NCBI RefSeq assembly: GCF_019649055.1
Contig: NW_026570225.1
Location: 868,001 to 932,000, forward strand
Length of the DNA: 64,000 nucleotides
From: Paramacrobiotus metropolitanus
Taxonomy: Eukaryota > Tardigrada > Eutardigrada > Parachela > Macrobiotidae
Direction: 5' to 3'
The notes below the pieces were generated by a model, which did not search any database, had not been told where the DNA came from, and saw only the letters and a program-made list of their open reading frames with translations. The position numbers and the translations under genes are program-made. Below are positions 20,133 to 29,791 of the stretch, piece by piece (position 1 is the stretch's first letter; each line of letters opens with the position of its first letter).

Positions 20133-23100
20133 TCAAAAAAATGCAGCAAAAAGGTCAGTGGCTGCTAAAACATTGCCATTGTCTTTGGTAATTGTTTCTC
20201 TGAAAACGCTCGCACACTGCGTCTTGCAAACGCTGTCACTCAAAATATCATTGACCGGGAAGGTTAACAACAGACTTCGACAGTTCTTGATCAACATCGA
20301 CTGGCAGAACAGGCCTTCACTGGTGCAGGTGCAACTGCTGCAAGGGGTCACCCGCTGTGACCGGCCCTTGGCTAACATCACTCCCGACACATTGCACGCG
20401 GGCACATCCGCCCATAGATTAAGATTCAGTCCGCTGATCTGTTCACAAGCCACAATGGGATTGATGTAGGGATCGGAGAGATCGAAAACTGAGCGTTGAA
20501 TGTGGGAGACGGTGTCGGAGGTGTCGCAGATCACTTTGGCCAGCGTCATTTTGCGGAGGCTGGCAAGTTGAGCTGTGTGGGGAAAAAACGCTTTTATCTT
20601 ATCGTCAGTTGGAGGGAACACTAAGGCAAAAAATTCGCCAACCTTCCGAGAAGCGTAATAAAGGGTCGCCCGTTTCGTACCAGAACCGGTCACATCGGCG
20701 CGTTCGATGCAGCTGTTCCGCGATCATACACCCAAATGTAGGTCCAACCTTGAGAGAACTTTTATTACACATGACACAAACTAAAAATACGTGCCGCTTT
20801 AAAGGACGCAGTCACAACTTACAACACCACCATAAACGCTGTATTCGGAAATTCCCCCAATGTACAGATCAATGTCGTCCACATGCTTGTAGACTTTTTT
20901 CAGCGCCTCAACAATTTCGTCCGGAATATATGCAGTCAAATCATTGAAATCGGCTGCACGCGTCAAATTACAGTATTCGCGAAATTCATTGTATCCCGGG
21001 AGACCGTGATCCCGACCGCGCATTATGTTGATGGCTACCAGATCCTGTCCACTGAATTTTCTACTGCGATCTTCGAACAAATGATCCGTCAGAGCTTTCG
21101 TCACAATAGAGTCCATGTTCTGCATCGGCTCCACAATTAAACCAATGAGCAACTGATCGATTCCCAAATCCTCGTACAGAATGTCCCCGCGGGCAAAGTG
21201 CTCCATTAATTTCACCCGGCTGCGGTTACCGGCGATAAAATTGTTGTCATACCGGCCAAATTCTCCTTGCACCAGCGTGTGTCCGAAACGGAACGCCGCG
21301 GCGGAAAATTCATTGACCAGCGTTGCGTCACAGTTTGGATCGTAGTTCGTGTAATAACTGGAACGTCGGGATCTCAGATCAACTGCTTGAGTCAATGCTT
21401 CGCCTAATATTCGTGGGAAATACTCATTGAAGCTGATATGCTGGAGCACGGCAATCAGGATTCGACGCGATTCTTGAAACAATTGTTCGTCTTTCCAGTG
21501 ACTATTGACCCTTTTCAGCTCGATTGCGATTTGGTTATGCAAACGCATCTGAAAACATTTCATTTTATGGTAGAATACTAGAAACGCTAAAGAACACATA
21601 AGAAGCAAAATATTCGCTAAATCGGATCGCTGTGTATAATCAGAGACAGTGAAATGGGTTGGGAACGAACTTTTCCTGTTTTTCAGGGCAGAGCCCCTGA
21701 CTCTCACTTCAGAGAACTAGAGTAGATATACACTATACATACATAAACCACACTATTACCCACTAGGTCCCACCCGAAACAGTCGAGAACAGTTATGAAT
21801 TTCTCGCGCACAAAATAGCTCCTGTTTGCTGAACATTTAACATCAGCGAGACAATCATGCATTTTTCGTCTGACTGAATTTTGTTAGACAGATGGGGATT
21901 TTATGGAACACCGCTGATCAGAGCAACACATGCAACTTCCTCGGATTGTAGCATATGGTAGCTGCCACAGGTCTAACGTAATATTTATCCACAAAAAACA
22001 CCTGCAGATGACCTTCGCTTCGTTGTGTCGAATGTGACACAAACCCAATTTCACGCTTTTGTCCACGAATTTCCTTTCCACCTACCCATATGGTATGAGA
22101 AACAGTCAACCCAGGACTTTCGTTCTCGCGCGTATCTCCAGCCAAGAAGCAGAGATTTCCAGGAACCGAATTAAGACATTCGAGGAATTCCACATCGTTT
22201 GAGTCGATGGTGGTTGGCAGAAGATCCTTCAGACCGGCATTTGGGTTCTTCGTAGAATTCAGTTTGCCTGTATTACCGAATTACAGCTAGAAAGCGTGAA
22301 TGTTGCAGTTCCGAAAATAAATGTGCAGATTACCGTCAACAAACGTCCGCAAACGTTGGGTCTTGCAGAGAGTGCTGCCGTACACCATACTGGCGTCCAC
22401 ATACGCCGTGTTCTGGTTCACCTGCTCCCGCGCTCCAAACGAAGTGCGTCCGGTTGCGGAGCGGATAAAAGCCAAACAGCGTCGCTCCGTAGTATTGCTG
22501 ATAAAAGGGGTCATACTTGAATCCGCCAGTGGGATCGGGATCGGCCGACAATTCGCACTGGTCACCTCCTGTGCGTTGCACGATCGGCAATTAAAATTGA
22601 ACCCATTCAAAGCAGTTGCGATGGGCGTTAGTGTCATATCGTGATCCACAAACTGGCCATACTGCATGAGCATGTGCTGAAATAAAAAACAAAAAGCGGT
22701 AACGGTGGCGGTACCTCTATTGTACCGTGCACGCATAATGCAATCCTATTCCTGCCCTAAGCATCTTACTTCTGTTACAGAAAAATAGAGTCGAGTGTGT
22801 GGTTTACTTGAATTTCGACTTAGATAAGAATTGGCTCTTTTTGTAAGAAAGGTGATTGTTCAGTTTATACTTCACTCTGTTGTGTAAATTCCTATCAATT
22901 CTTCTACAAGACTTCAACTCATCATGAACTGCCTTAACTTTGCGCCAGATTGACGAATGATAAAACGCGCGTAGGTAATTGTGCGCTGGCAGAAGCCGAA
23001 TTAATTGTTTATTACCGTGTAACGAGGATGCGGCCGATCCACATCTACTACGACTCCCAGTTGGACCTCCCGGGTGGACGGCAGAGGCACGCCTGTGACG

Positions 23101-23791
23101 CTCATATTGCGAGGTTCATCGACACCGTCAGCAAATGCTGGATCGAGCAGACGGCCGAATATCCTCTCCGATGATCCTCTTTCGGGGTGCTGCAGATTGT
23201 TACACCAACCCGAAATGCTGCGGTATTTGCTGGTGTGATCGCACGGGACGAACCGCTCGGCGCATGTTATGTTTTCCGTTGGTCCATCCAGTTTGGACTT
23301 AATCAGTCCGTCAAAGCGCTTCAGCTTGGACATGACACTGGATATATTGGAAGGTGTCCGGTTGACGAATTGGCGTTTAAGAATATGTTTGGTGCCCTGG
23401 ATGAAGGCGTTGGACTCGAGATTCATGGCTCGGACGGCGGCCGTCGGGCTGTTGAATGCGGTACGAATGCGGCCGGATTGGCTGCCTTGGGCCTGTGCTC
23501 GGGCAAGATCCGCTAAGGCAGTCACTGTCACTTCTTCGCGGGCCTTTTCCAAAATGTTCATCAGGATATCGGGGGAGATTTCGGGATCCGCAGGTATTTC
23601 TATATCAGGAAAATTTGAAACTGATTACACTTGTTTGGATCACATTTTTTAATATTTTTGAAATCTCGAAACTGACCTTCTTTCCACAAGCTGAGATCCA
23701 GGGAGGCAGAAAACGGCGACCGACAAGGCATTGCCGCGTTCCTATGCAGCAATACAATGAATACATTAATACTGCATTTAGGTAATGGCAT
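20133..23791 (-). CDS. Peroxidase A: secreted animal heme peroxidase, peroxidasin-like C-terminus
   Basis: Minus-strand exons in reading order: 23791-23677, 23599-23016, 22676-22334, 22267-22086, 21548-20823, 20748-20643, 20572-20133; 831 residues. The N-terminus has a short hydrophobic stretch (INVFIVLL) that may be a secretion signal. The animal peroxidase fold follows. Distal His is about 245 (QFVDHDM), catalytic Arg about 394 and heme-linking Glu about 397 (AGDTRENE), proximal His about 498 (FRFGHTL). The Asn that supports the proximal His is kept (AINIMRGRDHGLPGYN). All catalytic residues of the MPO/peroxidasin family are therefore present, so it should use H2O2 to oxidise halides, tyrosines or similar substrates outside the cell. 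The last exon ends in a CSSCTC...C stretch resembling the second half of a VWC domain, as found at the end of peroxidasin. No Ig or LRR domains are encoded. It lies 266 bp downstream of peroxidase B in the same orientation. Confidence 0.9.
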
Positions 23792-23952
23792 CGCAATGTA
23801 TGTTGACTAAGCATCAAGTTCAATGGTATCTCGTAACTCTAGTACGGATTAGCTGTATAGGGTTAGCGCCGCTTAGTTTAGTTTTATTACAGAAACAATC
23901 ATGCAGATTGCAGAACTTAGTTCATTGCACATAAGCTTTACTCAAAAGCATT

Positions 23953-23958
23953 TTTATT
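23953..23958 (-). terminator. Poly(A) signal AATAAA for peroxidase B
   Basis: Read on the minus strand, AATAAA about 100 bp after the peroxidase B stop and upstream of the peroxidase A start. It supports transcription of B ending in the short gap between the genes, and a protein that stops at 24058. Confidence 0.55.
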
Positions 23959-24057
23959 AGAAGTCGTTTAATCACAATGTAAATTATCGTGATATGCCTG
24001 CCACTTTCTACAGAAAAATTGAAGAAATTACGAGTTTCGGTGGGTTCCCAATTTCAC

Positions 24058-27000
24058 TTACAGCAACGAATCTGGCAGCAGCATAACGTGAGGTTGAATA
24101 GACGGAATATTGTCGCCATTCTCACAGATAATTCTTGCCAAGGTTGTAGTTCGTATCTCCGTCAATTGTTCTGTCAACAAAGAATACGTAATTAATGTCG
24201 AAACCCTCGATCGGTGTACATCGTATGCATGTGCTGTATGTGCAACAAGTGAACATACCTGGCGTAAACCGGGTTTCCGGAAGATCATTTTCATACCAAT
24301 AGCGATCGCCCACCCTCAGATTACGATACTGTTTTGCAATAATACAGGAAAACACCGGCCCGACTAATGCCCCTGGCTCATGAATTTCGGATAGTCCTCC
24401 AGTGAATAGATCAATATCATGGACGGTACTAAGTAAACGAATAGAATTCATGAATTAATGATAGTAGTGCTCTAGTTATGAAATTATCAATGTCCAGAAC
24501 AAACAAGCATCAATGGTTGATCATACTCATCACAGCGACTTTTGATCAGTTTTCAGTCCAAAGGAAACGAGCTTGTTCATGGTATAGCGTGTTACGGCTG
24601 AAAACGAGTGTATAACTGTACGCGGGACGATTCCCTTAAACTGAAAGTGTTCGAAATTGGATGCGGTCAGCTAAATAGTGATTTGGCAGAATGCTAAAAG
24701 CCCAACGCATATTCGACTCACTTGGTGTCAGAGCATTGCCGAATATTGAAAAAATTAAATAACCAGTTTTTAAAATGAGAACGGAAATCGCTGGAATCTT
24801 GACTGTTCTTAATTATAATTATTACAGGCGTCGTAATCGCATTTGCGAATCAAATTACTTGGGTTTGCGCTGGTCAATCGAAGCTGTAAGTTGTATATAA
24901 GAACGAAGGAAACAAAATTATTTAGAAAGCGAATCATGAACCACTATAAAACATGCGCCAAGTATATAAACTATTGAAATTAATATGTAGAGTTACAATA
25001 CCTGTAAACAGCCGACAATATTTTAATATTGCTTTCGCTGACGGAGTCTCTGAGATCGTCGAATGAAGTGGCCATCTTCAGACCGCACACACTCCGCCAG
25101 AAATTGTAGCTAGATAATCCATGATCCCGACCACGCTGAAATTGTGTACAATAATACAGTTTTTATGTCGTTTTCAGTTTTCCTTTTGTATGCTACAATC
25201 GAGATACCTGAATGGTGAGAGCCGCCAAATCCAGCTTTTGTCCAACGTTGGCTGCCGGATCATCCGCAATTCGCAGCCATCCGCTGTTCGTCAGCGCAGA
25301 GGTTACTGATTGGTCTCCCGGTCTAGCTGGTTGGTCTGCAATGCCCCGAATAGTTCCATCCAGTACGCCAGAAAAATACAGCTGTGATAGCAAAAGGTCA
25401 TTATCTGACCGTTTAAGGGCGCATATTTCGAAGCAAAAGCACATTGTGGTGCTGGCATAATACTTTGCAGCAAGATAAATGGCGTACGCAATAATGTATA
25501 ACTCTTACATCATAAGGTTGAAACCATTGGGTGTTAAACGGCTTGAAGTTAACACGCCCTCGTCTGTCGATAAACTGGGTACCATTTGCCATTAATGAAT
25601 ACCAGAACTTGGAAGCTGCAGTGGCGAATTCGTTCGTAATCCCAGGGTTCACGGCCGCGGAATAACCTAAAAATGCTCAGTTCTTGCACCATGTTTATGT
25701 AATTTATGTTTATGTATGTAAATGTTTACATAATTATGTACTCAATAACTTCGGCGTTTTAAATTTTGCTTCACCAGAACCAGTATGGACTCTATCTTTT
25801 TCGAACATTTTTTGTTAATTTTTACGCAGAGTTATCGTAAATGGTTTGCACTTTGCAGTTTGTGGGGCAGTTGCTCCAGTTTTGTTACTTGCGTCAGAGA
25901 CATAAGTAGATCACCAGCAAAAAATGCAGCTGCCGCGTCACCTCTGTGAGTAGGACTAGCTCTCATATTATTTTACCCATTTTCGGGAGGGCTGCTGACG
26001 AACGAAGATAAGCTTTGAGGGTGCTTTTAAAATGTTCACCTTGCGGATTTTATGAAAAATCATCGGTAGTGATAACTTTTCAAATCTCGAAACTGATAAA
26101 TAATTAAAATTTTATAAAAGTATTGCTGCGTTTTGGTTTCTATGGGATGCGCCAGCAAGAGTCTACAAAATAGTACAAACGGTACGAGTAGTCAGATCGA
26201 GGGAGAACCGGTTTGTCAGAAAATACTGTGCTTTCTGTATTTAACAGATTTACCACCGCGAATTCTGTGGACTGTTTATTAAGAAACTCCGGTCGTCAAA
26301 TTAGGATTTCCGATCGTTAATTTTGGTGGTTTTTAGACATAAATTTTGCTGTTTTTAAGTTTTATGCTCACTAGTAACTATTGTGATGCCTCGGTGTACA
26401 TACAATTATATTATATCTATAGAGACATTCGTTTTAAAATTTTCTTCGGAACTTCAGCGAAAAGTAAAATCTAAAACTTTGGTCTTACAGTTAATTATTA
26501 ATCTGCTGTAACAATAGACTTCAACAAGACCACTAAAGAAAAAGAAACCGCTGATCTCTACTCTGATTAATACACTAAAATAATATTGTTGTGAACTGAA
26601 TACACTAGTGCAAGGAGGGAGGAAGATGAACTACGAGTTTAGAACGTAATTTCCTTGTGACTGCACTTACTGTGGATTGCATAACTGCTTAGCGTTGAAT
26701 ATTACGCCCAAAAAAGAGCAACATCAAAATCACTTTTGCATTTGTTAATGAATTACCGGCAATCGCCGTGACATGTTGCTAACAAAGCGAAAGTGTCACC
26801 TACCGCAACTGCTGTCATTAGCACAGTCGTTAATCACATACCTCGGAAGTAGCCCTCGGCCACGAGTTCGATGCCGTTACGTGCCAATCCATTACGGCCC
26901 AGCAACAGCGGAAGAAATTCGTTAAAAGTGATGTGCTGGAGCTGAGCGATCAGAATCTTCCGAGCGCTTTGATACAGTTGTTCGTCGTCCCAGTGCGCGT

Positions 27001-29791
27001 TAACCTTCGCCAGTTTCTCAGCTAGACTGTTGTGTTCACGGGCTAGTCTGCCAAGAAACGGAAGCACTGGTTAGAAGATGCGGAAGTAGCACTTGTTCGT
27101 CGCAGCGGGCCCCCGTTTGTAGATCTACTTACAAAGTGTACAACGAGGCAATGGGCAGATTTTCGTTGACACGACGGTCACCGGCATCAAAACAGTTTGT
27201 GTCAGCATCTTTGGCTGGGCGGCAGTCGCTGCTGTTGAGGGCTTCCGATAGTAAACTCTTCCCATTCTCAAAATCAGTCATCCATAAGCGACCTTAAAAT
27301 CGCATGCAGTACACACGTTAAAACATATATGTTTATCAAGTAAAAACTATGGCACTTACAAATTACTGAATTTTTTATCTGTAACTTTACACAGTTCACA
27401 CACACAGTTTACACAGATCACAGTTTGAGATTTAACTCAATGCGAATAATTTCAGTAAGTTTTTTTAAGGTAAGCAGTTGATAATTAACGTTGCAGCTTT
27501 TATGCAAACAGCTAGTCTAGCTACGGCTTGCCTCCAGCGCCTTCTCGAAGTCGTTGGGCATCCTGAGGATTGTTGCCGTACAGAGCCGACGCATCCAGAA
27601 AGTGCGAAGCTTGATTAACTTGGTCGCGCGGGCCCATCGCGCAAAGTGTTTTGGGGGCTATAGCCGAGCGCACATAGTTTATGCAGGCATCCACACTGTC
27701 GTCATCGTACGAATCGTTAGGGTCAACTTCGATCGGCAGACATTCAGGGTGATTTTTTAGTTTGTCGCTGCAGCAGTTCAGGGATTGCAAATTGGAATCT
27801 GTACACATGTAGGCATGTTAAACAGTATTTAAGTGGTGAAACAGCAGCCAGACAAAGCAGATTCGGTCTTCTGTACAATGTTCTACGGTGAATGGTTAAT
27901 AATGATTGTACCCGCGTAAGCAGCAGTTTGTGAAAGGTCATGATCCAGAAACTGTGCAAAAGTGACCAGCATCTGCGATACATGTGGATGGTTTCCTGTG
28001 AGCGGCCAGTGCACGGACGAGCTGATGAAGCGCGGATTTGGCAGACTGCCACCCCGACTGTCCGTTCTAACCGCCCGAATGGCATCCGAGTAATTGTGTG
28101 GCAAGAAGCGAGAGTAAGGCGTATTTGTAGCGCCCCAGAAGGGATTCAGCATGTTGTTGCAGACTCCCTGTATGCTGCGGAATTCCGTCATATTGCAGGT
28201 AATCGGCACATTGTACGGACAGCGACGAGTGATGGTCGTATGGTCGGTTGGTGTTTGCGGCAAGCCGAAGATGATCTGCTCGCGCCGCAGACTTGACCTG
28301 TGCACAATACTGACATGCCGCTCTTGTCGTGTCAAAAACACGTTGCATAATGATTACATGCTACGACAGTCCATTATTATTGTCGCCTCGTCATGAAATG
28401 GAAAGTGATTTAGCACGTGGACGTTGTTCTGCAAATCATCCGCTTTTGCTCACGCTAGCTGTTGGTAATAATTATATGCATTTATTCTGCTGCGGGGTCT
28501 AAGTCACCCAGAATGATGAGATGCAAGTTACATAAAGAAAATCTAGAAAATGTGTGGCAGAATTTTTGATCGAATTCCAACACAAAGCGCATGACGCCAA
28601 TAACGTCTAACTCGATCCACGCCGCACAAAACCATGTAATTTGCTCTGGTTTAATTTACCGGTTGGAAATGAAGACCAGCATTCCTTCCAGAATGTAGGC
28701 TAGCTGGGATTCGCGTTTGGCATCAGCTGTCAGACGGGATTCGACGTTGGCCAGCTCAACAGGTGTCCGAGGAAGACTTCCTGTAATGATAAATGGAGTG
28801 ACTGTTTGATACTTTCTACCGCGGTATAACACAAACGTCGCACAAGAACCATAATATGTAAACTGAACAATAACCATGTACCGCACGTACAAAATTGTCG
28901 ACTGATCGCTACTTTATGCTACCCGTGGTGCCTTCGAATTTTTACGTTTATTTTACCGTATTAAATGTGTTTTTTGTACACTGACTGCAGGGAAACTTTA
29001 ATGTTTAAGCTTATACAGATATATTAAGTATTCAGTATCGCTGATGCAGTAGAAGTACTCGTACCTAGAGTATATATAAATATGTAAATAATTTGAAATT
29101 CAGCTCGTTGTCAGCTATTGTTACCCTATAACATACAGAAGAAGGAATAATAATATATTGTACCGAATAATTACTACCACAAGTTTCTTCTAGCCATTTA
29201 CATATTCACAATGTACTATTCCAAAGGTAAACGCGCCTAACAGCGCACTTCAAATAATTATTTTCCGAAAAAAGCTGTAATAGTATGGTTATGTGAGGAT
29301 TTGTCCTTTTGCGCTGAGCGAAGGTGTTCTTTAGAACTAAAACGTTCACGAACGTTCTTGTTCGGCACCTTTTGATCATGAATATTAACGTTAATAATTA
29401 TTCATTGGGAGAATTGTGTCTTACGTGAGCTGGTTGAGATCAGTGTTTCGACTGACTGAAAATCAATAGTCCGTCGTTGAGCGCTTTTGAAAGACAGATC
29501 AATCAGATCGGCCTCCACTTTCGGGGGTGGAATATTGGGAAAGTGCGGTCCTTTTATCGGCTGCGCGCTTTCTTTGCGATTGTTGCCTCGGCCATCGGTG
29601 GCGCTTGGTGCGACGGTGGAGGAAGGAGTGACCGAGGAGGTCGTAGTGGACACCGTAGCCGTGGCGGTGTTCAGCGTTGACGGCGGGATAGACCGACCCG
29701 TGGCACTGCTCGGTCGCTGACAAAGGCATCCATTGGGAAACGATATCAATAATATCAGAACAGCAGGAATTATTGCAGTTTTCCATGGCAT
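24058..29791 (-). CDS. Peroxidase B: heme peroxidase homologue with altered proximal heme pocket
   Basis: Eleven minus-strand exons in reading order: 29791-29425, 28780-28660, 28309-27912, 27798-27532, 27292-27133, 27047-26842, 25666-25509, 25381-25208, 25135-25002, 24428-24259, 24170-24058; 755 residues. A clear signal peptide opens it ([17 protein letters not shown]...CLCQ), then a Thr/Ser-rich stretch and propeptide-like sequence. Distal His (about 286, QFLDHDL), catalytic Arg (about 425) and Glu (about 428, AGDRRVNE) are present. At the proximal heme ligand the usual FGH reads FWY (Tyr about 529), and the supporting Asn of the ALN-Q-R motif is Thr (about 615, AALTIQ). One intron uses a GC donor. 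The protein ends early, just after [14 protein letters not shown], without the Cys-rich tail of peroxidase A; a GTAAGT overlaps the stop, so a further exon cannot be excluded. A 5' UTR exon may end at the AAAG/GTGAGT site near 29842. Confidence 0.85.

Follow-up and report, generated by a model that had tools for sequence, protein, structure and literature searches.

The window analysed here, a stretch of 64,000 nt from the genome of Paramacrobiotus metropolitanus (contig NW_026570225.1, positions 868,001 to 932,000), carries on its minus strand a predicted gene for an animal heme peroxidase with two domains (Table 1). Its 18 exons, read from position 29791 to position 20133, join into a single open frame of 1565 residues with no internal stop. 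Sixteen of the 17 introns have GT-AG borders and one, following exon 4, has GC-AG borders. The GC donor of this intron (window 27532/27531, GAG/GCAAGC) was chosen so that the frame stays open, and the donor of exon 17 is weak (GTTGGC). A Pfam scan of the model revealed two An_peroxidase (PF03098) stretches scoring 1199.8 bits together against a cut-off of 25, and no other Pfam family in the 1565 residues at E 0.001. Exons 3 to 12, ten in all, encode the first peroxidase domain (D1), and a linker of about 125 residues leads from its end to the Pfam start of the second domain (D2) at residue 898. The sequence-only reading of this stretch had described peroxidase B and a neighbouring gene, peroxidase A. 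In our model, both join in frame as two domains of one predicted protein; B thus does not look like a gene of its own, nor A like its neighbour, and the paired comparison that had been proposed becomes a comparison of two domains within one predicted protein. On the predicted gene model, the chain has the two peroxidase domains of a double peroxidase, the first noncanonical and the second canonical, and the same holds for a paralogue on contig C42 that is described below.

Table 1. Features of the predicted double-peroxidase gene, in window coordinates.
Feature	Position	Strand	Basis
Whole double-peroxidase gene model	20133..29791	(-)	18 exons, 1565 aa; two PF03098 stretches
Exon 1: start codon, signal-like hydrophobic N-terminus, Ser/Thr-rich stretch	29425..29791	(-)	Signal peptide judged by eye
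Exon 3: distal Gln278, Asp281 and His282 of domain 1; His codon 27942-27940	27912..28297	(-)	Model and alignment
Exon 5: distal Arg421 and Glu424 of domain 1	27133..27292	(-)	Model and alignment
Intron 6: no credible alternative FGH exon	25667..26841	(-)	Three-frame translation and tblastn
Exon 7: proximal helix of domain 1, SKFWY, Tyr525 for proximal His	25509..25666	(-)	AG and GT borders; myeloperoxidase (MPO) alignment
Exon 8: ALTIQ, Thr611 in place of Asn partner	25208..25381	(-)	MPO alignment
Exon 12: C-terminal end of domain 1 (PCRSPFSASLDLSLWKE)	23677..23741	(-)	Frame unbroken from exon 11 to exon 13
Exon 13: linker, then in frame into domain 2	23016..23599	(-)	Gene model and Pfam scan
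Exon 14: distal His979 region of domain 2 (QFVDHDM)	22334..22676	(-)	Model and alignment
Exon 15: distal Arg1128 and Glu1131 of domain 2	22086..22267	(-)	Model and alignment
Exon 16: proximal His1232 (FRFGHT) and Asn1316 (AINIMR) of domain 2	20823..21548	(-)	Model and alignment
Exon 18: end of domain 2 and Cys-rich tail	20133..20572	(-)	Tail without Pfam match at E 0.001

The two domains differ at the heme-ligating side of the active site. His336 and Asn421 of mammalian peroxidases are described as hydrogen-bonding partners (PMC3533774). The exon at 25509-25666 translates to ...ASKFWYSLM..., and in the alignment with myeloperoxidase its Tyr525 (codon 25601-25599) falls on the proximal His, just as the Thr of ALTIQR (Thr611, codon 25216-25214) falls on the Asn partner. 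Both substitutions had been proposed from the sequence alone, at about residues 529 and 615, and the alignment bore them out at residues 525 and 611 of the full model. The distal His, Arg and Glu ascribed to B are likewise present (H282, R421 and E424), and together with Q278 and D281 they make up a complete distal set. On the proximal side of D1, two additional changes are absent from the earlier account: the Gly beside the ligand is replaced by Trp524, and an Arg that is nearly invariant by Lys522. The five residues ahead of Tyr525 read A-S-K-F-W, with Lys at position −3 and no Arg. Examined as a working enzyme, D1 has the distal Gln, His and Arg and lacks the proximal His and its Asn partner. 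On its own, D1 finds matches in 70 distinct solved sequences (E values up to 0.001). Its best solved relatives, myeloperoxidase and lactoperoxidase (best E values of 3.5e-75 and 1.3e-71), share its distal Gln, Asp, His, Arg and Glu, and have His and Asn at the proximal positions where D1 has Tyr and Thr. Examined in the same way, D2 would qualify as a working enzyme by its residues H979, R1128, E1131, H1232 and N1316, so that the description of peroxidase A as canonical holds for the residues checked.

Two ways in which the FWY motif could be misleading, an alternative exon supplying FGH and a sequencing error, were followed up. Neither three-frame reading of the intron at 25667-26841 nor a tblastn search with four proximal-helix exons revealed a credible FGH exon, all matches inside the intron being at an E value of 0.7 or worse. 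A second genomic copy of this region, on contig C329, carries the same FWY and ALTIQ, which makes a sequencing error unlikely. This locus (L013, G000:C329:23000-32999) is a third copy of the double peroxidase; it is rearranged and, as assembled, contains five indels that break the frame, for which assembly error is possible. Ten exons (7 to 16) align with those of the window gene at 92 to 98.5% identity, with a dS of 0.19 between the copies, and exons 12 and 13 adjoin there too. Downstream of the gene there is also a displaced piece of exon 5, 65 bases long; the rest of exons 1 to 6 was not found on C329, nor were exons 17 and 18 found in the C329 stretch taken.

Intron 6 was also considered as a mobile element, and this was rejected. 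A DNA search, which skips very common words, placed a 550-base piece of the intron at only two sites, the second of which lies inverted on C329, just upstream of exon 7. The piece therefore looks like a rearranged duplicate and not like a dispersed repeat.

The C329 copy also allowed us to estimate the selective constraint on the changed region. Between the C5 (window) and C329 copies, exons 7 to 12, which encode both changed residues, have a dN/dS of 0.057 (bootstrap 0.016-0.125), with 31.5 synonymous and 6.5 nonsynonymous differences in 264 codons, and are thus under purifying selection. The corresponding value for exons 13 to 16 is 0.073 (0.042-0.114; 592 codons); the changed proximal region is therefore about as constrained as the catalytic domain. 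These values bear on exons 7 to 16 and not on the distal exons, which C329 lacks save for the exon 5 piece. Six introns, in the parts that align, show 84 to 94% identity between the two copies, and this likeness, along with the low dN/dS, suggests that the C329 copy broke only lately. Collectively, the preserved FWY and ALTIQ and the dN/dS of 0.057 make random decay unlikely, in agreement with what the sequence-only reading had maintained for B.

To place D1 among its relatives, we surveyed the peroxidase family of this genome. At least 102 exon-level PF03098 matches are present in the 169.8-Mb assembly (81 of 122 candidates scored). Nineteen stretches were taken, yielding models of 17 single domains and of one further double gene, on contig C42, with L013 as the broken copy; 21 domains, namely the 17 single ones and two from each of the C42 and window genes, were aligned (L005, L007, L009 and L011 being uncertain models). 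The proximal His aligned in 19 of the 21 domains; the two exceptions were the first domains of the double genes. At the position of its Asn partner, the 19 His-bearing domains have Asn in 14 cases and Asp in five, which indicates that this position is not fixed in this genome; the five with Asp are L003, L005, L006, L007 and L008. A complete distal Gln-Asp-His-Arg-Glu set was found in window D1 and in only six of the 19 His-bearing domains. The remainder of D1 is well preserved. With 16 well-modelled domains of this genome that bear the proximal His as a reference set (which excludes L002, L009 and L011), 78 columns are conserved in 15 or more of them, and D1 retains 71 of these columns. The seven it has lost include the ligand His and, three residues earlier, the Arg, a pattern that is not one of chance.

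Other members of the family have changed elsewhere. The single-domain models L002 (C20:426000-431000) and L007 (C13:988000-993500) keep the proximal His and have Phe and Ser, respectively, for the distal His, the mirror image of the residue loss in window D1; L002, scored on the same columns, keeps 57 of 78. Very similar peroxidase copies were seen on two contigs (L010/L011 on C299 and L014 on C109); of these, L011 gave a model that looks broken.

Like the window gene, the C42 gene comprises two domains in the same layout, and its second domain is canonical. The first model of its linker had stops, and a by-eye reading gives an open path with an in-frame GT-AG join. Its first domain reads SKLWL where window D1 reads SKFWY, with Leu at the ligand place and Val at the Asn position, and the five distal positions are occupied by Met, Glu, Asp, Pro and Gly, so that the distal set is lost. 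Ser-Lys-x-Trp ahead of the ligand place is common to both first domains, where Trp replaces the Gly beside the ligand, and occurs in none of the other 19 aligned domains. In a tree of 19 of the 21 domains (L009 and L011 were left out), the two first domains are sisters (98/99) and so are the two second domains (97/98); the C42 first domain forms a long branch whose placement was flagged as unsure by the tree program. The double layout is therefore probably older than the gene duplication. Ser-Lys-x-Trp was probably already present before the duplication. The residue at the ligand place would then have changed to Tyr in one lineage and to Leu in the second; alternatively, each lineage may have lost the His separately. 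Identity is 37.3% between the two first domains and 51.6% between the two second domains. The C42 first domain keeps 55 of the 78 conserved columns, and we judged it too far from window D1 for a dN/dS estimate.

These observations lead us to propose that the gene probably encodes a secreted double peroxidase with a noncatalytic first and a catalytic second domain, both translated, as the join predicts, from one mRNA. D2, as a canonical animal heme peroxidase, would do the chemistry. D1 appears to have kept the fold and the distal pocket and to have lost the heme-ligating proximal side (His to Tyr, Asn to Thr, Gly to Trp and Arg to Lys), and would most likely contain no heme or hold it only loosely, with no activity of its own. 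It may instead act as a partner or scaffold that folds with D2, positions it or anchors it outside the cell. The sequence-only reading had left the choice between a Tyr-ligated heme and a heme-free domain under selection; our data favour the heme-free domain, and the Tyr-ligated heme is weakened by the Leu in C42, the Trp beside the ligand and the missing Arg. Against the noncatalytic reading of D1 stands the complete distal pocket, since all five residues, including both heme-ester acids, are kept in D1 whereas 13 of the 19 domains with an aligned proximal His lack the full set. A heme-less domain has no plain reason to keep distal residues.

This pocket speaks for a heme bound through Tyr525, assisted by the distal residues and by ester bonds of Asp and Glu, in which case the peroxidase would be fused to a module that resembles a catalase or stores heme. 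The Tyr lies exactly on the ligand position, the distal Gln, Asp, His, Arg and Glu are all kept, and a copy at a dS of 0.19 has FWY and ALTIQ unaltered. Nevertheless, we consider such a heme unlikely, as the sister first domain has Leu at the ligand place and both first domains have Trp for the Gly beside it. Moreover, heme ester bonds form from His-ligated heme, which also counts against a Tyr-ligated D1. Monofunctional heme catalases do have a Tyr as the proximal residue, as D1 would if Tyr525 ligates heme at all. They belong to another superfamily than the animal heme peroxidases and have another fold, whereas D1 matches PF03098. In catalases, an Arg stands just before the ligand Tyr; in D1 the five residues before the Tyr contain no Arg, with Lys at −3, and a Tyr with an Arg partner on the same helix, as in a catalase-like site, is not found. 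The catalase Tyr is described as sitting in a hydrogen-bond network with a conserved Arg (PMC9687031). Human DUOX domains without canonical residues have been reported to bind heme weakly (PMC6368334), which, taken with the complete distal pocket, leaves a Tyr-ligated heme in D1 some probability, if a lesser one. It is similarly improbable that D1 would represent a heme site of the peroxidase-cyclooxygenase superfamily with Tyr swapped for His and a complete distal pocket, joined to a His-ligated peroxidase; if true, it would be a natural ligand swap with an internal control in the same chain. A literature search, which covered titles and the starts of abstracts and did not work by residue, returned no animal peroxidase with Tyr at the proximal-His position.

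The distal pocket might also be used without heme, D1 binding peroxide, a lipid or a halide and handing it over to D2. The completeness of the distal residues would fit such a role, as would the need for a mosquito double peroxidase in lipoxin A4 synthesis (PMC9754258). However, the C42 first domain has lost its distal set, and we regard the idea as doubtful, indeed improbable.

That B and A are two separate genes after all, B being an inactive secreted peroxidase, seems quite improbable to us. The join rests on a predicted model and would be compatible with separate transcripts, and the linker is long; yet the end of D1 in exon 12 runs in frame into exon 13 and D2, an unsystematic look by eye revealed no separate signal-like start before D2, and both C42 and the remains on C329 show this layout again. 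Very improbable is the view of D1 as a decaying relic that hitch-hikes on a useful D2, for which one could cite the 55 of 78 columns kept by the C42 first domain, the lower identity between first than between second domains and the indels and missing exons of the C329 copy, but against which stand the 71 columns kept by window D1, the excess of synonymous over nonsynonymous differences in exons 7 to 12 and an 18-exon model without a stop.

We return to the proposed noncatalytic D1 beside a catalytic D2 when comparing the gene with known systems. This gene offers a clean test case for what a damaged first domain does in double peroxidases: a D1 with a complete distal pocket and no proximal His stands beside a canonical D2, and the D1 of the paralogue has lost both sides. 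If D1 still binds heme, the ligand rule of the superfamily is broken; if it binds none, this would suggest a structural task for which the fold is retained.

The N-terminal animal-peroxidase domain of DUOX resembles D1 in lacking the proximal His, the loss of which is described for DUOX (PMC4420034, PMC4654585), and in being fused to a working enzyme. In DUOX, the fusion includes an NADPH-oxidase part, of which the window gene has none, PF03098 being its sole Pfam match. Mosquito DBLOX has two peroxidase domains, the first with a damaged active site. Like the window gene it is called a double peroxidase, a likeness drawn from its description and not from its sequence, and it is reported to be needed for lipoxin A4 synthesis in immune priming (PMC9754258, PMC13043729).

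A double peroxidase with a noncanonical first domain is already in print, namely LsPxtl-1 of the salmon louse, the only one whose first-domain motifs were found described in the literature searched. According to the motif analysis reported for it, LsPxtl-1 resembles the window gene in having two animal-peroxidase domains per chain, of which only the second has the classical motifs, distal and proximal, while the InterPro result in the same paper runs opposite to the motif analysis (PMC10579435). The related crustacean proteins are likewise described as two-domain, and knock-down of LsPxtl-1 in nauplii is reported to lead to death shortly after moulting (PMC10579435). Compared by motif description, the two first domains are altered on different sides. 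The distal motifs given for LsPxtl-1 are GGxxAHD and RxxH, neither of which is found in window D1; the latter has AQFLDHD and RVNE (DHD and RxxE), a complete set. Unlike the first domain of LsPxtl-1 with its altered distal motifs, window D1 has thus suffered its loss on the proximal side.
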